A stretch of DNA of 64,000 nt, from positions 20,596 through 84,595 of the IMG/VR virus record IMGVR_UViG_3300005577_000030; one strand, written 5' to 3'. Of this stretch, positions 48,817 to 62,927 are shown piece by piece (positions within the stretch are counted from its first letter, which is position 1; every line of letters starts with the position of its first letter). This DNA comes from a virus. The notes under the pieces were generated by a model. It did not search any database, was not told where the DNA came from, and worked only from the letters and a program-made list of their open reading frames with translations. A program made the translations under genes and the position numbers.

Positions 48817-50253
48817 ATGCGCAATGTTCGTGGCTCTATATTAAATAGATACTCTAATAAGGATATAATGTCAGTAAAGAATGAAACAATAAAAATGGAA
48901 CAAAACGAATTAGTCGATGATATTTCAAACGAAGAAATTAAAAAATCAAACGAAGAAGAAAATTTAAATGATGATGTGATGGCTCAATTAAAAGCAAAAT
49001 TGGCAGCCAAAACAGAAAAAGCTGAGGAAAAAGTTATGACACCACGAATAGTAGAAAAGAAAAAGCGCAGTATTGATCTAGGAGTTGTAGCTTCTGGTCA
49101 GGCTGGCGGAAGAATTGCAGAAACTTTTAATACTCTAGGATATCCCGTTGTAGCTGTAAATACTGCCCAACAAGATTTAGAATTTTTAAATATTGACGAA
49201 TCTTGCAAACTCCATCTTCAATGGACTTTAGGTGGTACTGCAAAAGATCAAATTACCTCTAAGGATGCTACTGATAATAATATTGATTCAATTCGTCAGA
49301 TTATTGCAGAAAAATTAGATTCTTCAGTACACGGTTATATTTTTACTACATCTTTGGCTGGTGGTTCTGGTTCAGGTTCTGCCGAATCAATTATCCAAAT
49401 GATGCAGGAATTTGGAAAGCCTATTGTAGTTGTTGCCGTACTACCTCTTTCAAATGATGATGCTATTGGTAAAAATAATACTATTTCAGCTTTAGCTAAA
49501 TTAACTTCTATGGCTCAAAATAAACAAATATCTAATTTAATTTTAGTTGATAATAGCCGAATTGAAACCATTTTTGCTGATGTTTCTCAAATGGATTTCT
49601 TTAATGTTTCAAATTTAGCTATTGTGGATGGTTTAGATTCATTTAATAAATATAGTGCTCAGCCATCAAAAGTAAAGAGTTTTGATCCAATGGAATGGGC
49701 TACTGTACTTTTTTCATCTAATGGCATTTCTACTTATGGTTCTATCGATGTAGATAACGTTCAAGAACCTACAAGAATTGCTGAATCTGTTATTGAGAGC
49801 TTATCTGGAGGATTATTGGCTAGTGGGTTTGATCTTAAACAAGCTAGTCATGTAGGTGTATTATTTGTTGGAAATGAAGAAACTATGAAATCAATTCCTA
49901 GCGCAAATATTAACTATGCTATGAGTATAATTAAAGAAACTAGTCCAAGTGCTACAGGAGTTTTTCGAGGCTTATATGAGGATGAATCAATTAAGCCTGG
50001 AATATTAAGAGTTTATTCTATTTTTGCTGGATTAGGATTGCCAACTGAACGTATTAATTCTTTACAAAAATCTGCTAAAGAAGAGATGGAAAAAACTAAG
50101 GGTAGAGATCAAAATAGAAATTTAACTCTTAAATTAGAAACTGGAGTTGAAGAAACAGCCTCTGCTGCTGATAAGGTACGTGAATTAATTAAGAGAAATA
50201 GTTCAACGTTTACTAAGAATTTTGTCGGTATTAAAGATTTTCGCAAGAAATGA
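48817..50253 (+). CDS. Tubulin/FtsZ-like GTPase
   Basis: 478 residues. After a charged, disordered N-terminus of about 80 residues comes a tubulin-type GTPase core: ASGQAGGRIAETF at 92-104 (T1 loop), VAVNTAQQDL (T2), LAGGSGSGSAES at 180-191 (the GGGTGSG signature, here AGGSGSGS), VVVAVLPLS (T5), and FDPMEW at 289-294, where D290 and E293 could be the catalytic acidic pair of the T7 loop. Phage tubulins (PhuZ, TubZ) form filaments that position DNA or a replication compartment. The ATG at 48868 has a better ribosome site (AAGGA) and would shorten the protein by 17 residues. A hairpin follows the stop. Confidence 0.8.
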   Translation: MRNVRGSILNRYSNKDIMSVKNETIKMEQNELVDDISNEEIKKSNEEENLNDDVMAQLKAKLAAKTEKAEEKVMTPRIVEKKKRSIDLGVVASGQAGGRIAETFNTLGYPVVAVNTAQQDLEFLNIDESCKLHLQWTLGGTAKDQITSKDATDNNIDSIRQIIAEKLDSSVHGYIFTTSLAGGSGSGSAESIIQMMQEFGKPIVVVAVLPLSNDDAIGKNNTISALAKLTSMAQNKQISNLILVDNSRIETIFADVSQMDFFNVSNLAIVDGLDSFNKYSAQPSKVKSFDPMEWATVLFSSNGISTYGSIDVDNVQEPTRIAESVIESLSGGLLASGFDLKQASHVGVLFVGNEETMKSIPSANINYAMSIIKETSPSATGVFRGLYEDESIKPGILRVYSIFAGLGLPTERINSLQKSAKEEMEKTKGRDQNRNLTLKLETGVEETASAADKVRELIKRNSSTFTKNFVGIKDFRKK

Positions 50254-50332: not shown

Positions 50333-51799
50333 TTGGTTGAAATTATAATAAATGGAACATCTTGTAAATTAATAGATGATTCAATACCTACTAGAGTTTT
50401 GCAGAAATTAGATTTAGAACTATCTTATAAAATCGAAGGCGCTGAATTTAGTGAAGCGTATAAATCTCGTGGATGGGATGGTACGAAACATTTATTAAGT
50501 AAAAAATTAGAATTTCCATACGGTTTATTAGATAGAGTTAAAGATTTTTTAAAAGTATATGATATTGAATATACGATTAAAGATAATCGTGATATTTTTA
50601 AACCGAGACCAATAGATATTTCAGAACGATTAAAAGAACTTAAAAAAATTCCATATGATTATCAAATAAAAGCCGCAAGTATAGTTTTAGAAAAAGATTG
50701 TGGAATAATTCGTATGGCTACTGGCGCTGGCAAGTCGATTGTATGCTGTATGATGATTGCTAACTTGGGTCGAAATGCTAATGTATATGTTATTGGAAAA
50801 GATTTATTATATCAATTACATTCATTATTAAAACAAGTATTTGTAAATATTAAAGTTGGCATTATTGGTGATGGATTATGTGAAATTGGTGATATAAATG
50901 TAATTTCTATTTTTACTGCTGGTATTTGTTGTGGTATTGATAAAAAGAAAATTATTAATGATGATTTTGATGGCGAAAATATTGTGCCAGAAAATAAACA
51001 TCAATTTATTAGAGAAGCATTAAAAAAAGCCAAAGTTCATATATTAGATGAATGCCAAGTAGTAACAGCAGAAACAATTAACATTATACATAAAAATATA
51101 AATGCAGCTTATATTTATGGAATGAGCGCTACTCCATATAGAGGAGATAATAGTTCAATTTTAATTTCTGAATCAATTCTTGGCAGAAATATAGTAGATA
51201 TTTCAGCGTCATATTTAATTGAACGTGGTTTTTTGGTACAACCTGTTATTAAATTTATTGATGTTCCAAAATATAAAGGAGTTCTACCTAAAACTTATCA
51301 ACAAATATATACGACATATATAGTTGAAAATAAAGTTAGAAACGATCTAATTATAGAACATGCAAAAGATTTAGTTGCAAAAGGTTATAAAACACTTATT
51401 TTGTTTGATAAAATTGCTCATGGCGATTTATTATACGATGCATTAAAAGATCAAATACCATGTTCTTTATTATCTGGAAAAGACAGTAACGAACAACGTA
51501 ATATTATAAAAAAAGATATTGAAACGGGTACTATTAAATGTATTATTGTTTCACGAATTTTTGAAGTGGGAGTGGATATTCCGTGTATTAATGGATTAAT
51601 TTTAGCTTCGCCTACAAAATCGAAAATTAAAGTTTGTCAAAAAATTGGACGAGTTATTAGAAAGTTCGAGGGGAAAAGTTTTGCGGCCGTTATAGATTTC
51701 AAAGATTCAGCTAAATATTTTAAATTACATTCTGAAGAACGTAAAAAAATATACGAGCTAGAGCCGAAATTTAAAATACTATGGCCCCAGAAAAAGTAA
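50333..51799 (+). CDS. SF2 DNA helicase, UvsW-like
   Basis: 488 residues. N-terminal 85 residues (KSRGWDGTKHLLSKKLEFPYG) match the small substrate-binding domain in front of UvsW helicases. MATGAGKS at 128-135 is Walker A, DECQ at 239-242 is motif II (with Cys and Gln), MSATPYRGD motif III, and CQKIGRVIRK motif VI near 440-450. UvsW-type enzymes remodel branched DNA and R-loops and help switch replication modes. The start is TTG at 50333 with AAGGA 5 bases upstream; no ATG fits the domain. Confidence 0.85.
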   Translation: MVEIIINGTSCKLIDDSIPTRVLQKLDLELSYKIEGAEFSEAYKSRGWDGTKHLLSKKLEFPYGLLDRVKDFLKVYDIEYTIKDNRDIFKPRPIDISERLKELKKIPYDYQIKAASIVLEKDCGIIRMATGAGKSIVCCMMIANLGRNANVYVIGKDLLYQLHSLLKQVFVNIKVGIIGDGLCEIGDINVISIFTAGICCGIDKKKIINDDFDGENIVPENKHQFIREALKKAKVHILDECQVVTAETINIIHKNINAAYIYGMSATPYRGDNSSILISESILGRNIVDISASYLIERGFLVQPVIKFIDVPKYKGVLPKTYQQIYTTYIVENKVRNDLIIEHAKDLVAKGYKTLILFDKIAHGDLLYDALKDQIPCSLLSGKDSNEQRNIIKKDIETGTIKCIIVSRIFEVGVDIPCINGLILASPTKSKIKVCQKIGRVIRKFEGKSFAAVIDFKDSAKYFKLHSEERKKIYELEPKFKILWPQKK

Positions 51800-52398
51800 A
51801 TTTTATAATGGAACAAGTCAAACTTTCTAAACCTTGGGAAAATTTCTTTTATAAATTCAAGGATATAGAAGAAGAACCTTTTAAATCCAAAGTATTCTTA
51901 TGGAAAGAAGTTCACATATTAGCTTATATATGTAAGCGATTTAAAGAGTTATATAATAAAGACTATGCTATAACGCAAAAAAATGCACCATCAAAGTGCC
52001 CTGATATGTTTTTTGTAAGAAAAATGATTTCGACTTTAGGCACTACAAATATGGTGATTGTTAAAGAATATATTGATTGGATATACGATAAAAAAATTAT
52101 TCCAGAAAACAAGAAAATTAGAACATTATCCTATTTTATGACAGCAGGATTTGTAAATGAATTTTATTTCCAAAAATCGGAATCTGAAATAGTTAAAAGA
52201 TCTACTTCTCTTCCTAAAAACTATAAAGAAATTGCTAATGCTTTAAATGTTTCAGTAGATACATATGGAGATTTAGCTTTTATAAAAATGGCCTCAGATA
52301 GAGCTAAAGGTGATTTAAATAATCCTAATGTAGTATTTTTTGAAAATATTAAAGCTTTAGGATTTGATATTTCTATTTTGGAGAAATTGGCTGAATGA
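51781..52398 (+). CDS. Unknown protein coupled to the helicase
   Basis: 205 residues, starting 19 bases inside the helicase gene; ATG 51808 is an alternative start. Mostly helical, with LSKPWENFFYKFKDIEEEPF at the N-terminus and APSKCPDMFFVRKMISTLGT near residue 68-87. No catalytic motif seen. The tight coupling suggests a partner of the SF2 helicase or of DNA replication. Family not recognised. Confidence 0.6.
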   Translation: MAPEKVNFIMEQVKLSKPWENFFYKFKDIEEEPFKSKVFLWKEVHILAYICKRFKELYNKDYAITQKNAPSKCPDMFFVRKMISTLGTTNMVIVKEYIDWIYDKKIIPENKKIRTLSYFMTAGFVNEFYFQKSESEIVKRSTSLPKNYKEIANALNVSVDTYGDLAFIKMASDRAKGDLNNPNVVFFENIKALGFDISILEKLAE

Positions 52399-52847
52399 AA
52401 GTTGGAGATTTTATTAAAATTGTATTATCATCTAACCAAGTTGAAGAGGGAATTATTATTTCAGTAGATGATATTGAAAAAATTGAAATAGCTCCACAAA
52501 AATTCATTTACAGACATTGGTTAGTTTTAGCTCATAAAGATTTTCCTAATTTAAAACTTACTGTTGATAAAAAGGAAATTATAGCTTTTCAAATTAGTGA
52601 AATTGAATTACAAAAAGCAAAAGAAGTATTTGTTGTAGATGATCAAACTATAAATCAAGAAAATGATTTAGTTTCAATAGATATTAATGACAAAAATTCA
52701 CGTATTAAAAGGTTGGCACATTTAGCTATTAAAAATGGAGAAAAGGAGCGTAATTATTTTAAAAAAAATATTAAAAATAATAATGGTATTCCTCCAAATA
52801 TAAGCTTATCACCTAAATATAAATTGCCATTTTTCATTAAAAAATAA
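52395..52847 (+). CDS. Unknown small protein
   Basis: 150 residues, ATGA overlap with the previous gene. The first 85 residues look like a compact beta barrel (MKVGDFIKIVLSSNQVEEGI, WLVLAHKDF), SH3/KOW-like in appearance; the last 65 are charged and Lys/Asn-rich. Not recognised. It is the last gene before the tandem family and has no H...CxxC...C pattern itself. Confidence 0.55.
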   Translation: MKVGDFIKIVLSSNQVEEGIIISVDDIEKIEIAPQKFIYRHWLVLAHKDFPNLKLTVDKKEIIAFQISEIELQKAKEVFVVDDQTINQENDLVSIDINDKNSRIKRLAHLAIKNGEKERNYFKKNIKNNNGIPPNISLSPKYKLPFFIKK

Positions 52848-52851
52848 ATTT

Positions 52852-53061
52852 ATGAAATCTTCTTCTAAGAAATTTACTCATAATTTAATTAAATATAGTA
52901 GATTTGATTTATCATATGATTATATTTGCACAGTTTGTGGAATTGAATTATATAAAGCTATTTTTGATGAAGAATATTTTCTCTTGAATGAAGGGCATTT
53001 ATCTACAGATTACTATGAATATAATTGTAATGAGTGGATTATTAAAAATATAGTAGAGTAA
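52852..53061 (+). CDS. Array protein 1, H-CxxC-C mini-protein
   Basis: 69 residues; candidate metal ligands H10, C26, C29, C59. The N-terminus has an extra KSSSKK before the shared motif (FTHNLI), so it is one of the more divergent members, as expected at the edge of an array. The C-terminus YNCNEWIIKNIVE differs from consensus by one residue. It starts 4 bases after the preceding unknown gene, with no purine-rich ribosome site. Fold and role unknown; a small zinc-binding module is inferred. Confidence 0.8.
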   Translation: MKSSSKKFTHNLIKYSRFDLSYDYICTVCGIELYKAIFDEEYFLLNEGHLSTDYYEYNCNEWIIKNIVE

Positions 53062-53062
53062 T

Positions 53063-53278
53063 ATGGAAAAAGAAAGTTATTTAACTCATCAATTAGTAAG
53101 ACATATTTTCCCTAATTATAAAGGTTATAATGATTTTAAATGTAATATTTGTGGTATTTATTTATGTAAAATGAATGATATGTATTTTTTACTTAATAAT
53201 GATGGATCAGGTCCGAATAATGAAGATGAATTTTCATTGACTTGCAATCAGTTTATTATTAAAAATATAATAGAATGA
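53063..53278 (+). CDS. Array protein 2, H-CxxC-C mini-protein
   Basis: 71 residues; H9, C27, C30, C61. Closest to copy 5: both share THQL, the GIYLCKM-type segment with a third Cys just after CxxC, an NDGS/DDGS turn and the unusual ending CNQFIIK. That pairing points to a duplicated unit. One base separates it from copy 1. Confidence 0.8.
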   Translation: MEKESYLTHQLVRHIFPNYKGYNDFKCNICGIYLCKMNDMYFLLNNDGSGPNNEDEFSLTCNQFIIKNIIE

Positions 53279-53490
53279 AGTATTTAACTCATAATTTAAT
53301 TGAATGCAAAGATCAGTATTATGATTATTATGTAGATTTTAAATGTAATATTTGTGGTGTATTATTAGCCAAATCTTTACATAATAAATTTTATTTAATT
53401 AGAAAAAATCCAAATGATTTTTATGATATTGAATATGATGAATTTTTATTAAATTGTAATGAAGTTATAATTAAAAATATAATAAATTAA
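53275..53490 (+). CDS. Array protein 3, H-CxxC-C mini-protein
   Basis: 71 residues; H6, C24, C27, C61, plus an extra C11. Starts by ATGA overlap with copy 2. Its last residue is Asn (IIKNIIN) instead of the usual Glu. The middle (NPNDFYDIEYDEFLL) is more acidic than in other copies. Confidence 0.8.
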   Translation: MKYLTHNLIECKDQYYDYYVDFKCNICGVLLAKSLHNKFYLIRKNPNDFYDIEYDEFLLNCNEVIIKNIIN

Positions 53491-53491
53491 A

Positions 53492-53698
53492 ATGATAAAA
53501 ATAATTAAATATTTAGATCATGAATTAATTAGATCGAATCCTAATTATGATATAAATGATTATCGGTGTATTAATTGTAATATATTACTTTATCAGGCAG
53601 CTAACGAAAAATATTTTTTTATAGATGAAAATTCTCATAATGTATATAATTTTATTTATACATGTAAAGAATGGATTATTAAAAATATAATTGAATAA
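53492..53698 (+). CDS. Array protein 4, H-CxxC-C mini-protein (LDH subtype)
   Basis: 68 residues; H10, C26, C29, C58. First of the subtype with YLDHELI, RCINC and YTCKEWIIKNIIE, shared with copies 6 and 9. One base after copy 3. Confidence 0.8.
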   Translation: MIKIIKYLDHELIRSNPNYDINDYRCINCNILLYQAANEKYFFIDENSHNVYNFIYTCKEWIIKNIIE

Positions 53699-53699
53699 T

Positions 53700-53909
53700 A
53701 TGGAAAAATATTTAACTCATCAACTAATTAAACATGCTTTTGAAGGTTATGATTCTTATCAAGATTTTACATGTGAAATTTGTGGAGTTTATTTATGTAA
53801 AATGGATAGTATATATTTTTTACTTAAAGATGACGGATCAGACACTCTTGATGAAGATGAATTTTTATTAACTTGCAATCAGTTTATTATTAAAAAGATA
53901 ATAGAATGA
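53700..53909 (+). CDS. Array protein 5, H-CxxC-C mini-protein
   Basis: 69 residues from ATG 53700 (an in-frame TTG lies 9 bases upstream within copy 4); H7, C25, C28, C59. A near-twin of copy 2 (about two thirds identical by eye). The C-terminus is CNQFIIKKIIE. Confidence 0.8.
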   Translation: MEKYLTHQLIKHAFEGYDSYQDFTCEICGVYLCKMDSIYFLLKDDGSDTLDEDEFLLTCNQFIIKKIIE

Positions 53910-54100
53910 AATATTTAGATCATGAATTAATTCAAATTGATCCTAATAAAGATATGTACTATTATCGATGTATTAATTGTAATGTAATACTTTATAAAGC
54001 ATTTGATAAAAACTATTACATTATAATTGAAAATCCATATATTATATATAAATTTTTATATACATGTAAGGAATGGATTATTAAAAATATAATTGAATAA
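53906..54100 (+). CDS. Array protein 6, H-CxxC-C mini-protein (LDH subtype)
   Basis: 64 residues; H6, C22, C25, C54. ATGA overlap with copy 5. Very like copies 4 and 9, including YKFLYTC before the final helix. It ends the first tightly joined run of the array. Confidence 0.8.
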   Translation: MKYLDHELIQIDPNKDMYYYRCINCNVILYKAFDKNYYIIIENPYIIYKFLYTCKEWIIKNIIE

Positions 54101-54102
54101 TA

Positions 54103-54110
54103 TATAAATA
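54103..54110 (+). promoter_or_regulatory. TATAAATA box in the only gap of the tandem array
   Basis: TATAAATA equals the -10 element of T4-type late promoters, and it lies 33 bases before copy 7, in the only intergenic space within the array. The window is so AT-rich that a chance match is quite possible. Confidence 0.25.
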
Positions 54111-54142
54111 TATTTATCTCATATTGATTAGAACAAAAACAT

Positions 54143-54370
54143 ATGATGATTTTATATGCACAAAATTTTAAAATTAAATATTTAAATCATGATTTAATTA
54201 AAATTAATAATTTAAATATATGTTTTAAATGTACTGTTTGTAATGTTATTTTATATTCTGTATATAGTAAGCCAGCTGGTAAACTTATATTTTATGAACC
54301 ATTACCAGGCCCCCTTTCTGAATTTAAATATAATTGTAATGAATATATTATTAAAAATATAATAGAATAA
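54143..54370 (+). CDS. Array protein 7, H-CxxC-C mini-protein
   Basis: 75 residues, the longest member; H16, C30, C33, C65, with an extra C27. It has ten additional N-terminal residues (MMILYAQNFK) before KYLNHDLI and a Pro-rich loop (EPLPGPLSEF). The start follows a 42-base gap. Either of the two tandem ATGs may be used. Confidence 0.8.
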   Translation: MMILYAQNFKIKYLNHDLIKINNLNICFKCTVCNVILYSVYSKPAGKLIFYEPLPGPLSEFKYNCNEYIIKNIIE

Positions 54371-54371
54371 T

Positions 54372-54581
54372 ATGAAATATTTAACTCATGAATTAATAAA
54401 AACTAAAATGTATGGTGATAATTTCAATAATGATTTTATATGCACTATATGCGGAGTATTATTATATAAAGAAAATATAAATAATCGTTTTTTTGAAATT
54501 AAATCAAAAAATCATTTAAATGAATATAAAATTTTTCAATTAACTTGTGATGAAGTCATTATACAAAAAATAATAGAATGA
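54372..54581 (+). CDS. Array protein 8, H-CxxC-C mini-protein (QKIIE subtype)
   Basis: 69 residues; H6, C24, C27, C59. Ends in CDEVIIQKIIE, a variant shared only with copy 10. One base after copy 7. Confidence 0.8.
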   Translation: MKYLTHELIKTKMYGDNFNNDFICTICGVLLYKENINNRFFEIKSKNHLNEYKIFQLTCDEVIIQKIIE

Positions 54582-54775
54582 TAAAATATTTAGATCATCA
54601 ATTAATTCAAATTGTCCCAATAGAAGATATAAACGATTTTAAATGTATAAATTGTGGTATTATACTTTATCAATCATCTAATAAAAATTATTACTTTATC
54701 GATGATAAACAACGTAAATATTATAAATTTTTATATACATGTAGTGAATGGATTATTAAAAATATAATTGAATAA
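54578..54775 (+). CDS. Array protein 9, H-CxxC-C mini-protein (LDH subtype)
   Basis: 65 residues; H7, C23, C26, C55. ATGA overlap with copy 8. Member of the LDH subtype (YLDHQLIQI), placed between the two QKIIE copies, so subtypes alternate along the array. Confidence 0.8.
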   Translation: MIKYLDHQLIQIVPIEDINDFKCINCGIILYQSSNKNYYFIDDKQRKYYKFLYTCSEWIIKNIIE

Positions 54776-54776
54776 A

Positions 54777-54983
54777 ATGCAAAAGTATTTAACTCACGAA
54801 TTAATTCGAACATATATATGTGGTAAAACTTATTATAATGATTTTATATGTTTAAAATGTAACGTCTTATTATATGCGCAAAATCAACAATATTATAAAA
54901 TTACATCGTGTGATTCTTATGATAACTCTCAAATTTTCACATTAACTTGTGATGAAGTCATTATACAAAAAATAATAGAATGA
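54777..54983 (+). CDS. Array protein 10, H-CxxC-C mini-protein (QKIIE subtype)
   Basis: 68 residues from ATG 54777 (in-frame TTG 9 bases upstream); H7, C25, C28, C58, with an extra C15. The DNA of its last 35 bases is nearly the same as that of copy 8. Confidence 0.8.
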   Translation: MQKYLTHELIRTYICGKTYYNDFICLKCNVLLYAQNQQYYKITSCDSYDNSQIFTLTCDEVIIQKIIE

Positions 54984-55183
54984 TACAATATTTAACTCAT
55001 AAATTAAAGCCATATGGAAAGTTTGGACACCATTTTGACTTTAAATGTGAAATTTGTAATGTATGTTTATTTCAATCTTCTAATACCTATTTTTATTTAA
55101 TAAATAATGACGGATCAACCTTTGATGTTAAAAACTTTCTATTAACTTGTAATGAATGGATTATTAAAAATATAATAGATTGA
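54980..55183 (+). CDS. Array protein 11, H-CxxC-C mini-protein (NVCLF subtype)
   Basis: 67 residues; H7, C23, C26, C57. Shares CNVCLFQSS after the CxxC with copy 12, its direct neighbour, giving a third nearby Cys. ATGA overlap with copy 10. Confidence 0.8.
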   Translation: MIQYLTHKLKPYGKFGHHFDFKCEICNVCLFQSSNTYFYLINNDGSTFDVKNFLLTCNEWIIKNIID

Positions 55184-55185
55184 AA

Positions 55186-55392
55186 ATGTTAAAAATAATT
55201 AAATATTTAACTCATGAATTAAAAGAAATTAAAAATTATGGTAGCTTTTATGATTTTAAATGTACTATTTGTAATGTATGTTTATTTCAGTCTTCTACTG
55301 GTACTTATTATTTAATTGAAAATAATAAAACTGATGATGAATTTTTTTTATTAACCTGTGATGAAGTGATTATCAAAAATATAATAGAATGA
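55186..55392 (+). CDS. Array protein 12, H-CxxC-C mini-protein (NVCLF subtype)
   Basis: 68 residues from ATG 55186; a TTG at 55180 overlapping the previous stop is the alternative. H10, C26, C29, C58. Adjacent twin of copy 11, the most recent-looking tandem duplication. Confidence 0.8.
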   Translation: MLKIIKYLTHELKEIKNYGSFYDFKCTICNVCLFQSSTGTYYLIENNKTDDEFFLLTCDEVIIKNIIE

Positions 55393-55586
55393 TTAAATAT
55401 TTAACTCATGAATTAATTAGAATTTACCCTTATGATGATATTTTTGATTATAGATGTAAAAATTGTAATGTAATATTATATGAAACCTCTAACATGAAAT
55501 ATTTTTATATATGTGAAAAACCGAGATTAATTTATGAATTTTTATATACTTGTGATGAATGGATAATTAAAAATATAATAGAATAA
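55389..55586 (+). CDS. Array protein 13, H-CxxC-C mini-protein
   Basis: 65 residues; H7, C23, C26, C55. ATGA overlap with copy 12. Its middle resembles the LDH subtype (RCKNCNVILY, YEFLYTC) but its N-terminus is YLTHELI, so it looks like a recombinant between subtypes. Confidence 0.8.
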   Translation: MIKYLTHELIRIYPYDDIFDYRCKNCNVILYETSNMKYFYICEKPRLIYEFLYTCDEWIIKNIIE

Positions 55587-55594
55587 AATAAAAA

Positions 55595-55783
55595 ATGATA
55601 AAATATTTAAATCATGAACTTATAAAAATCGAATATTTTGATTTGCATTTTAAATACAATATTTGTAATATTTTTTTATGTAAACTGTATGATGATTATT
55701 ATGAATATAATAAAAATTCAACAAAGTTTATTAAATATAAATATACTTGCGCCGAGCAGATAATTAAAAACATATTAGAATAA
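55595..55783 (+). CDS. Array protein 14, degenerate family member
   Basis: 62 residues, the shortest. The His (H7) and last Cys (C52) are kept, but the first Cys of CxxC is Tyr (Y21-N-I-C24); C29 follows in LC. It may not bind metal in the same way. It lies 8 bases after copy 13 and 2 bases before the helicase loader. The C-terminus IIKNILE is preserved. Confidence 0.75.
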   Translation: MIKYLNHELIKIEYFDLHFKYNICNIFLCKLYDDYYEYNKNSTKFIKYKYTCAEQIIKNILE

Positions 55784-55785
55784 TA

Positions 55786-56451
55786 ATGATATCCAAAGAA
55801 TTAAGAAATGTCCCCGAAACAAAATTAAAAACTCTAATAGATGAATTAGATAAAACTGATGAAAAAAAATCCAGTTTATTAGCTAAAGCATACGAAAGAT
55901 ATTTTAATGCCAATATCCCTATCATGTATTGGAAATTAGAAATGTCAAAATTTAATGGAGACCCAACTTTATTAAATATTTATAATGATCTAATTGTCGA
56001 TTTAAAAAAAACATATGATAACGGAAAAACTCTATGCCTCGCTGGTAGTTTTGGCCGAGGAAAAACTATGACAGTTACTAATATATTAAAACGTGCAGTT
56101 GAAAAAGGTTACACAGCCCTCTACGTCACACTCAATGATATTATTTCTGCAATTTATTCTCCAGACGCCTACTCAGCACGAAAAGAATTATTAACCGTAG
56201 ATTTTTTAGTTATAGATGAATTTGACTCAAGACATATGTCCAATACCAATCAGTCAATAGATTTTTTTGCCAGAACTATTGAAGATATATTTAGAACTAG
56301 ATCTCAAAATAAATTACCCCTTTATTTATGTACTAATTCCCCAAACCCTTTAGAAGCCTTTAAAGGATCATTAAAAGAAAGTATTACTAGCCTTTGGAAC
56401 TATGTTGATCTTATTCCCGTTACCGGAAAAGACTTTAGAGCGGAGAAATGA
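55786..56451 (+). CDS. Helicase loader, DnaC/IstB-like AAA+ ATPase
   Basis: 221 residues. GSFGRGKT at 87-94 is Walker A and VDFLVIDEFDSR at about 137-148 Walker B, with a sensor-like LYLCTNSP near 182-189. A helical N-terminal part of about 60 residues would bind the helicase. DnaC-type proteins place the DnaB helicase on DNA. It overlaps the helicase gene by 4 bases, which supports the pairing. From here on codon use has more C-ending codons than in the array before it. Confidence 0.85.
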   Translation: MISKELRNVPETKLKTLIDELDKTDEKKSSLLAKAYERYFNANIPIMYWKLEMSKFNGDPTLLNIYNDLIVDLKKTYDNGKTLCLAGSFGRGKTMTVTNILKRAVEKGYTALYVTLNDIISAIYSPDAYSARKELLTVDFLVIDEFDSRHMSNTNQSIDFFARTIEDIFRTRSQNKLPLYLCTNSPNPLEAFKGSLKESITSLWNYVDLIPVTGKDFRAEK

Positions 56452-60190: not shown

Positions 60191-61804
60191 ATGTTCGTAA
60201 TTAAACGCGATGGATCCAAGGAACAAGTAAAGTTTGAAAAGGTAGCTAAAAGAATAACGAGAGTCGCCAAAGATCTTAAAAATGTTGATCCTAATGCTGT
60301 AGCTCAAAAAGTTATTCAGGGTATTTATGATGGCGTATCTACTGTAGAATTAGATAAACTTGCAATAGAAGTAGCATATTCTATGACCACTATGCATTAT
60401 GAATATGATCGATTAGCTGTTAGACTCGCTGTTTCAAATTTACATAAAAATACACCTTCTACTTTTTCTGAAGCTGTTGATAAAGTTTACAATTCAGTTG
60501 ATGTATTTGGAAATAAACGTCCATTAATAGCTGAAGATGTATATACTATAATTAAGAAAAATGCTCACATTCTGGATTCAAAAATTGATTATGATCGGGA
60601 TTATTTATTAGATTATTTTGGATTCAAAACATTAGAGCGATCTTATTTATTAAAGATAAATGAATATGTTGATAATAAATTAACACAAAAAATCGCATTT
60701 CGGCCACAACATTTATGGATGATGGTTTCAGTTGGAATTCATAAAGAAGATATTGATGCCGCATTAGAAACATATGAAATTCTTTCTAAAAAAGAAGCTA
60801 CACATGCAACTCCAACATTATTTAATGCAGGATTAATTAAAAATCAGCTCAGCAGTTGTTTTTTAATAGCAATGAATTCTTCCGATTCAATGGCTGGTAT
60901 TTATGATACATTAAAACAAACTGCTTTAATAAGTCAAAGTGCCGGAGGAATTGGATTACACATTCATAATATAAGATCAAAAGGATCTCCAATATTTGGC
61001 ACAGGAGGATTATCAAATGGTATAATTCCTATGTTAAAAAACTTTAATGAAACTGCGCGTTATGTTGATCAGGGCGGGAAAAGGAAAGGCTCATTTGCCA
61101 TATACTTAGAGAGCTGGCATTCCGATATCTTTGAATTTTTAGATTTACGTAAAAATAATGGTAAAGAAGAATTTCGTGCAAGAGATTTAAATCTTGCTTT
61201 ATGGGCTCCTGATTTATTTTTCAAACGAGTAAAAGAAGATGGAAAATGGACATTAATGGACCCAGCTAAATGTAAAAATCTTTCCGATGTTCATAGTGAA
61301 GAATTTGACAAATTATATATTCAATATGAACAAAACAATATGGGTGAAAAAACAATTAATGCACGTGATCTTTGGAGTAAGATTGTTGAAGCACAAATTG
61401 AAACTGGTCAACCATATATTTTAGCAAAAGATGCTTGTAATAATAAATCAAATCAAAAAAATCTTGGTACAATTAAGAGCAGTAATCTTTGTATAGCTGG
61501 TGATACATCTGTTTTTATTAAAACCTCATTAGTGGATGATGAAATTGAACTTCCAATTAATAACGTTGTTAACATGTTTAAAAATGGAGAAAAATTATTT
61601 ATCAAATCATATGATGAAATAAATGATAAAATTACTTTCAATGAAATATTAAACGGTGCAGAAACAAATCGTGAAGCTGAAGTTTTAAAAATTACTTACA
61701 ATGATTATGAAATAGTTTGTACCGAAGATCATGAATTTTTCACCACAAGAGGTTACGTAAAAGCCAAAAATTTATTGGAAACAGATATTTTAAAATTAAT
61801 TTAA
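60191..61804 (+). CDS. nrdA: Ribonucleotide reductase large subunit, N-terminal half, fused to N-intein
   Basis: 537 residues. Residues 1-433 are the N-extein: ATP cone ([17 protein letters not shown]), [11 protein letters not shown], active-site C223 in [26 protein letters not shown] and [10 protein letters not shown]. Residues 434-537 (from Cys codon 61490) are an N-intein: [12 protein letters not shown] (block A, nucleophilic Cys1), [17 protein letters not shown] (block B with the usual D/E-x-H) and a stop at 61802. No endonuclease is embedded. The product must join with the protein from 62928 by trans-splicing. Close to eukaryotic RRM1 over the extein. Confidence 0.93.
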
Positions 61805-61814
61805 TTGGAATTTA

Positions 61815-62927
61815 ATGATAGAAAAAGAAAATGAAGAAAAAATAAAACAAAATAAATTTTATTGTGAGTTTGATTCAAAATTTTATAATCGCATACAAAT
61901 GGTAAAATTATTAAAAATAAATGTAGACATGTTTAATTATTATTTTAATAAATTATCATTAGAATTACAAAATGAAGTAATTAAAAGTAATGATTATAAA
62001 TATAAATATTTATATAGAATTATATCTAATAAAATCATATATTGTATTTATTCTAATAAATTAATTCCATTTGAAAGAGTTCTTAGAGGATGCATAACAT
62101 TTTCAGATGTTGAAAGTTTATGGGGTAAAGGAATATCAACACGAAATAAAAAAAGACCCGAACATGCTAAAATAATTTCTCTTAAGCTTAAAGGTGTTAA
62201 AAAATCTAATGAACACCGTAATAAAATGACTCAAAGATTAAAATCTATAGATTTTAAAAAAAAAGTACTGTCTAATAAAGGAATTGAATATACGGATGAT
62301 TCTTCTGTATATGAAAAATATGCCGCCCTGTATTCTAATTTATTAAAATCGTTTGATTTTAAAAAATCATTTGTTTTAAATAATTATAAATTATATTTAG
62401 AAGATACAGAATTAACTCATGAAGAAATTAATCAAATGAGTGAAACTGAAATTTTAAATTTATATTCTGAATTAATGTCAATAAAAAGTTCTATAGCTAT
62501 GGCTAATTCAACTTCAATGGGGAATGCCAAAATAGTTAAAATTGAAAATTTACAATATAATTTAAGAAATATAAATTCAATTGATGTTAGATCTGAAATG
62601 GAAAAGAAAATAATTTCTTTTTTTGAACGTAATAAAATTTATTGGGATTATGAAACTGAAATTATAAAATATTTTTTTAATTTTAATAGAAGATATATTA
62701 TGGATTTTATATTTTATATTGATGGTAAATGTAATTATATGGAAGTAAAAGGTTCGGTTAGAAGTAGTGATGTTGAAAAAACATTAGCAAAAACCAAAAC
62801 AGCAATTGAAAAATTTGGTGAAATATATGTTTATCAAAAAGAATTAATTACGTCGATAAAAGATTTAGATAAAATTAAATATAATAATTTTTCAGAATTT
62901 AAGTTAAAACACGTATATGGAGATTGA
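61815..62927 (+). CDS. Homing endonuclease between the split nrdA halves (NUMOD3 plus PD-(D/E)XK)
   Basis: 370 residues. Near residues 113-140 two NUMOD3-like DNA-binding repeats can be seen (RPEHAKIISLKLKG and KSNEHRNKMTQRLK). Residues 258-325 look like a PD-(D/E)XK-type nuclease: SEMEKKIISFFERN with its Glu, YIMDFIFYIDGK with D297, and YMEVKGS with the E-x-K. Its place between the two intein halves matches the fractured-gene arrangement with Vsr-like homing endonucleases reported in marine phage metagenomes. Ribosome site GGAATTTA before the ATG; the stop abuts the next ATG. Confidence 0.8.
   Translation: MIEKENEEKIKQNKFYCEFDSKFYNRIQMVKLLKINVDMFNYYFNKLSLELQNEVIKSNDYKYKYLYRIISNKIIYCIYSNKLIPFERVLRGCITFSDVESLWGKGISTRNKKRPEHAKIISLKLKGVKKSNEHRNKMTQRLKSIDFKKKVLSNKGIEYTDDSSVYEKYAALYSNLLKSFDFKKSFVLNNYKLYLEDTELTHEEINQMSETEILNLYSELMSIKSSIAMANSTSMGNAKIVKIENLQYNLRNINSIDVRSEMEKKIISFFERNKIYWDYETEIIKYFFNFNRRYIMDFIFYIDGKCNYMEVKGSVRSSDVEKTLAKTKTAIEKFGEIYVYQKELITSIKDLDKIKYNNFSEFKLKHVYGD

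Follow-up and report, generated by a model that had tools for sequence, protein, structure and literature searches.

What are fourteen consecutive copies of one small gene doing in a phage genome, and how far does their likeness extend beyond the array itself? The question is raised by 14 tandem open reading frames (ORFs) at positions 52852-55783 of the window, by which we mean the whole stretch of 64,000 nucleotides analysed here (positions 20596-84595 of the IMG/VR phage record IMGVR_UViG_3300005577_000030, which is 84.6 kb long and labelled G000). An earlier note, made from the sequence alone, had read the array as a self-contained family of zinc mini-proteins in which a His and three Cys residues, arranged as H...CxxC...C, are followed by a final helix, CxExIIKNIIE. 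That reading turned out to be incomplete: the ending is a tag common to proteins with unrelated bodies. We compared G000 with three further records, namely G001 (IMG/VR 3300005577_000027), G002 (3300028920_000022, 458,729 bp) and G003 (3300027740_000003, 435,004 bp), all four being metagenomic and from uncultured phages.

A C-terminal tag common to unrelated proteins

The tag is a helix of 9-12 residues that forms the extreme C terminus and has the consensus [TS]-(C)-x-E-x-I-I-[KR]-[DNE]-I-I-E, its most informative positions being I(-6), I(-2), I(-3) and E(-9). It was detected with an iterated position-specific scoring matrix of 12 columns applied to the ORF C termini of G000-G003. Carriers numbered 19 of 91 ORFs in G000, 49 of 234 in G001, 111 of 825 in G002 and 110 of 772 in G003, giving 289 of 1,922 ORFs in total (13-21% per record, about one protein in seven); as ORFs were called mechanically and the sequence was divided at 20-kb edges, these counts are approximate. 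A chance ending in AT-rich genomes is ruled out by three observations: only 1 of 296,982 internal 12-mers scored equally high, a control scan with the reversed pattern gave no matches, and the C-terminal scores were bimodal, with just 12 of the 1,922 falling between 5 and 15 bits. The tag is strictly C-terminal, its final residue is E in 181 of the 289 carriers, and a helical moment of 1.37, against 1.13+-0.07 for shuffled sequences, shows it to be amphipathic.

The bodies that precede the tag are diverse. In G001 the ending CxEWIIKNIIE also closes proteins with other bodies, among them HREDGPA repeats, which have EEWIIFQIIN at their end, and a set that lacks CxxC and ends in NLTEEEFIIKNIIE. 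Five more tagged genes, with bodies unlike the zinc mini-proteins, lie at the start of the G000 contig outside the window (L027 197-1918) and end NERIIQNIIE, NENIIENIIN, KENIIKNIIE, CDEQIIKNIIE and EEERIIKDIIE. When 296 carriers from G000-G003 and a further record, L043, were clustered by body at E<1e-3, 126 clusters were obtained, 65 of them CxxC-free; sequence clusters may merge by fold, so that 126 is an upper bound on the number of independent bodies. The CxxC-free bodies include DUF4116 repeats (Pfam E 7e-20), HREDGPA/MORN-like proteins and many orphans, and since they share the same ending, a tag restricted to the zinc family is ruled out. In AlphaFold2 (AF2) models of two unrelated folds, the zinc mini-protein and an HREDGPA/MORN-like protein, the tag coincides exactly with a C-terminal helix; the HREDGPA/MORN-like model has a predicted local distance difference test score (pLDDT) of 96.6 and the tag as helix 100-109. 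The occurrence of E(-9), I(-6), I(-3) and I(-2) is unrelated to CxxC, unlike that of Cys(-11), and ExII[KR][DNE]IIE is independent of body type. The final helix had been taken for a property of the mini-protein family, but the same helix ends many unrelated bodies. The tagged genes encode small, accessory proteins: carriers are 41-439 amino acids (aa) long, with medians of 70-96 per record, 193 of the 289 measuring 60-100 aa, another 72 measuring 100-150 aa, and none reaching 500 aa or more.

Besides L043, the tag is present in records G005, G016, G017 and G018. None was found in the relatives G014 and G015, an absence that says little because G014 is a short piece and G015 consists mainly of the core region, which is tag-free in G002 too. 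Over GTDB genomes the tag pattern gave just 24 lone matches, chance-like in character. In Cloacimonadota (L178, L181 and L194), proteins resembling ribosomal protein bL21 end YTEIIIKDIIK or near variants, a resemblance that is probably due to chance. The tag as a general trait of huge phages is unsupported: Bacillus phage G had no matches to the pattern in 497 kb and no tagged ORF among 589 in 400 kb, and no carriers occurred within the 49-kb stretches examined of Agrobacterium phage Atu_ph07 and Salicola phage SCTP-2. We found no earlier description of the tag in the open-access literature and, as judged from the databases and that literature, a shared tag on unrelated bodies appears to be new.

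The fourteen-gene array and its metal site

Within the array, the 14 consecutive genes of 62-75 codons described by the earlier note are all present as ORFs, on one strand, with neighbours overlapping or 0-42 nt apart. With one paralog as query, the other 13 were recovered in their own genome at E = 3e-25 to 3e-7, a significance far beyond chance. Alignment of the 14 proteins with MAFFT (alignment A1) has H10, C29, C59, I63, I64 and I67 invariant and Y7, L8 and C26 conserved in at least 90%; the His and three Cys are kept in 13 of the 14, as had been noted, the exception being gene 14, in which Tyr replaces the first Cys of CxxC. Variability is highest in the middle segment, which separates CxxC from the last Cys, again as the earlier note had it, and also in the linker preceding CxxC. 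The closest groups, {4,6,9,13}, {2,5}, {8,10} and {11,12}, are 57-65% identical, which indicates that the array expanded by repeated duplication.

All 14 putative zinc mini-proteins are encoded on the + strand. The series begins with mini-protein 1 (52852..53061, 69 aa, tag NCNEWIIKNIVE), followed by 2 (53063..53278, 71 aa, TCNQFIIKNIIE) and 3 (53275..53490, 71 aa, NCNEVIIKNIIN), whose genes share an ATGA overlap. Mini-proteins 4 (53492..53698, 68 aa) and 6 (53906..54100, 64 aa) both end in TCKEWIIKNIIE and enclose 5 (53700..53909, 69 aa from its ATG, TCNQFIIKKIIE). After 7 (54143..54370, 75 aa, NCNEYIIKNIIE) the tag TCDEVIIQKIIE closes both 8 (54372..54581, 69 aa) and 10 (54777..54983, 68 aa from its ATG), with 9 (54578..54775, 65 aa, TCSEWIIKNIIE) between them. 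The last four are 11 (54980..55183, 67 aa, TCNEWIIKNIID), 12 (55186..55392, 68 aa from its ATG, TCDEVIIKNIIE), 13 (55389..55586, 65 aa, TCDEWIIKNIIE) and the variant 14 (55595..55783, 62 aa, TCAEQIIKNILE).

The AF2 model of mini-protein 13 (m528387756ee8; 98 homologues, pLDDT 89.5) has six strands and then a C-terminal helix, 55-64, formed by the tag. Positions of the putative His and Cys ligands are kept across the 98 family members. Cys(-11), the last Cys, is found in 134 of 179 CxxC-bearing bodies vs 1 of 117 others (Fisher p = 3e-43), and its near-complete confinement to CxxC proteins marks it as a probable metal-site residue of the zinc bodies. Because the last Cys is tied to CxxC and the model is confident, a one-zinc His/Cys3 scaffold with variable surfaces is plausible.

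Searches of the array proteins against Pfam, PHROGs, NCBIfam and PADLOC gave scattered, weak single-member matches, none of them convincing, and no family was identified against PDB sequences, INPHARED or GTDB contigs. With the mini-protein 13 model, Foldseek found no match at E <=0.001 in PDB or BFVD. The profile, sequence, fold and isolate searches rule out a known zinc-ribbon or zinc-finger family as the identity of the array proteins, and the suggestion that the family is undescribed is supported as far as the databases and open-access literature examined extend.

Selection and turnover

Ratios of non-synonymous to synonymous change (dN/dS) within the array were 0.17 for the tag, 0.31 for the knuckle and 0.88 for the middle, values that are rough because synonymous divergence is already substantial. 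On this rough measure the tag is strongly constrained and the variable middle is relaxed to near-neutral. The earlier note had proposed the same comparison as a check on diversification; positive selection in the middle is undemonstrated, the ratio not exceeding 1. That the array proteins inhibit many host targets can only be inferred. Visual inspection of the window ORFs of at least 90 aa showed none resembling a reverse transcriptase, no search having been aimed at diversity-generating retroelements.

Tagged genes turn over rapidly. Between G002 and G003, reciprocal best hits were found for 8 of 104 tagged small proteins vs 64 of 337 size-matched untagged ones (p 0.006), and all 11 of the sibling homologues of tagged proteins that were found are likewise tagged. 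The residues of the tag themselves differ between these two phages: positions -10, -7, -3 and -1 track the phage and not, detectably, the zinc or non-zinc body, positions -5 and -4 depend on both phage and body type, and the HREDGPA proteins of G001 have a tag variant of their own, IIFQIIN. Tag letters that track the phage are as expected if tags fit each phage's own receptor.

A possible docking or sorting signal

Our working hypothesis is that the array represents a lineage-specific insertion made up of paralogous accessory genes, each product having two parts. The first is a variable body, which in the array takes the form of a small putative zinc knuckle (His/Cys3) set on a beta-sheet, and the second is the constant C-terminal helix, which also ends about 110 proteins in each of G002 and G003. 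The helix may serve as an address, or docking tag, recognized by one common receptor per phage, and a single receptor would bring many different proteins to the same place or machine. Most likely, the tag would serve to gather these proteins for joint delivery, much as the internal proteins of T4, a varied set of anti-restriction proteins with only a capsid-targeting sequence in common, are packaged and injected. That the tag is a common docking signal seems to us rather probable, and for the hypothesis as a whole, accessory bodies joined to a common docking or sorting helix, the chances appear evenly balanced. Should the tag be a docking signal, packaging into the virion would account for about half of the expectation, the rest being shared by a phage compartment and recruitment to a host or phage machine. 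More tentatively, one helix tag that coevolves with a phage-specific receptor may deliver more than 100 structurally unrelated, rapidly changing accessory proteins to a single destination, newcomers being recruited as they acquire the tag; the candidate destinations we infer are the virion, a compartment or a hijacked machine.

Several points weigh against this hypothesis. The helix is joined directly to the body and is confidently predicted there, and so may be a mere intramolecular cap; gene conversion or shared descent could explain the concerted tag letters within a phage; and neither a prohead protease nor any other packaging factor was recognized near the capsid gene. The T4 targeting sequence, moreover, is N-terminal and cleaved.

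About one gene in seven in these phages, nearly all of them unannotated, carries one and the same machine-readable signal. Should the tag prove to be an address, identifying its single receptor would assign a role to more than 100 uncharacterized proteins together, the accessory arsenal of such phages could be listed by simple computation, and the short helix might be used to send cargo to a phage structure or machine.

Comparison with known systems

The internal proteins of T4 are diverse counter-defence proteins that have only a short conserved targeting sequence in common (PMC3012670), and the tag resembles this sequence in being a short element common to otherwise unrelated accessory proteins. 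The T4 proteins differ in being few per phage and in bearing their sequence at the other end of the chain, and no sequence relation to the tag was found. The closest architectural parallel is the poxvirus ankyrin/F-box (PRANC) proteins, a multi-gene family that combines a variable N-terminal interaction module with a constant C-terminal docking domain (PMC9414399); we claim membership neither of that family nor of the T4-type set. Poxvirus PRANC proteins dock to the eukaryotic SCF and use one repeat type, whereas the phage tag is about 10 residues long and sits on dozens of body types, and no Pfam match to PRANC or F-box was obtained among the proteins scanned.

Short helical domains that bring different cargo to one compartment are described for the encapsulation peptides of bacterial microcompartments (PMC12339742). 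Encapsulation peptides are joined through a disordered linker, unlike the tag, and no shell was found in these phages. We know of no phage examples of such peptides. In nucleus-forming jumbo phages, the PicA pathway likewise concerns the sorting of many phage proteins to one place, and the tagged-phage lineage encodes a tubulin/PhuZ-like protein; a term search turned up no import-signal motif in the PicA paper. The tubulin/PhuZ-like gene lies at 48817-50253 (Tubulin/FtsZ family; Pfam Tubulin 2e-13, TubZ-like C domain, PHROG PhuZ 1.6e-6) and is conserved in G002 and G003.

Tandem paralogs of about 100 aa and HREDGPA and DUF4116 families also occur in Atu_ph07 and other jumbo phages, but the 49-kb stretches of Atu_ph07 and SCTP-2 have no carriers of the ExIIKDIIE tag, and C-terminal similarity there stays within a family. 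In Atu_ph07, tandem small proteins of a single family (L247 45386-48859) have a different common ending, E-x-FY-x-F-[IL]-[DE]-R-V, which may reflect a comparable principle based on another motif. SCTP-2 (L248) has 28 DUF4116-repeat matches, and several of its proteins end like IN[KR][LM]KLxxGP.

Alternative explanations

The alternative that survives best, though we think it unlikely, is that the tagged proteins are adaptors, each body binding a host protein and every tag docking on one shared machine of the host or the phage, such as an AAA+ protease, so that different targets are redirected. Repeat or zinc-finger interaction bodies with a constant C-terminal helix, as in the poxvirus analogy (PMC9414399), would suit an adaptor, as would tagged genes that are small, turn over fast and have expanded within one lineage; however, no flexible linker precedes the tag.

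Somewhat less likely still is a structural role, in which the tag would fold back against the body that carries it, or pair with further tags, and would have reached its various bodies by modular fusion, no separate receptor being involved. In both AF2 models the helix follows the body directly and confidently, and the probable ligand Cys of the zinc members lies in the tag's first turn. An intramolecular interface should, however, vary with the fold, whereas the tag's most invariant residues, E-9, I-6, K/R-5, I-3 and I-2, are identical across unrelated folds. We regard it as improbable that the tag is a C-terminal degron or stability signal by which the accessory proteins would all have the same short or regulated lifetime: the strictly C-terminal position and the frequent final E speak for it, but the last position is mostly occupied by acidic or polar residues that differ by phage (E, K, N, T, Q), whereas ssrA-type tags end in small hydrophobic residues.

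Largely refuted, and very improbable, is a DNA or RNA element in which the tag codons act as recombination seed or translational-coupling signal and the peptide is a by-product, for although 83 of 111 tagged genes in G002 overlap the next start codon, tag Ile codons favour ATA, and synonymous divergence within the 14 genes is lower at the N-terminal motif and the tag than elsewhere, each peptide is written in very many synonymous DNA words, the tag is no weaker where the next gene is distant or on the opposite strand (35 cases), and the reversed-pattern control was empty. The 24 occurrences of IIKDIIE have 20 distinct DNA spellings and the 35 of MIKDIIE have 24, and the tag score is 26.7 bits with a close downstream gene vs 26.1 without one; selection therefore acts at the protein level. 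The ATA bias and the fewer synonymous changes near junctions point to a possible minor DNA-level role in duplication.

Phage lineage and genomic surroundings

Within IMG/VR, G001 is the only record with close relatives of the array proteins. G002 and G003, with dozens of tagged genes each, were the main returns of an IMG/VR scan with a DNA pattern for the tag peptide plus stop. Both have a terminase, and G002 also encodes portal, sheath and major head proteins. Both are colinear with G000 and G001, with core identity of roughly 40-65%, and the four records therefore belong to one huge-phage lineage. The nearest isolate seen was Bacillus phage G, whose baseplate wedge is about 30% identical.

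Upstream of the array, on the + strand, are a conserved core gene (51781..52398; orthologs at G002 L090 7507-8094 and G003 L103 16230-16823) and, directly preceding the array, a gene for 150 aa (52395..52847), at the position of which G002 (L090 8091-8585) and G003 (L103 15670-16233) have small unnamed ORFs and no array. A DnaC-like helicase loader follows on the same strand (55786..56451; PHROG E 1.6e-17; orthologs at G002 L090 8554-9249 and G003 L103 15024-15707). The flanking genes are nearly adjacent in G002 and G003 with no array between them, and among these three records the array is specific to G000.

Elsewhere in the window, a big block at 25978-48807, partly conserved in G002/G003, apparently consists of glycosyltransferase and nucleotide-sugar genes. 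At 60191-62927 the large chain of a ribonucleotide reductase is interrupted by an intein-like segment, after which comes an ORF that may encode a homing endonuclease.

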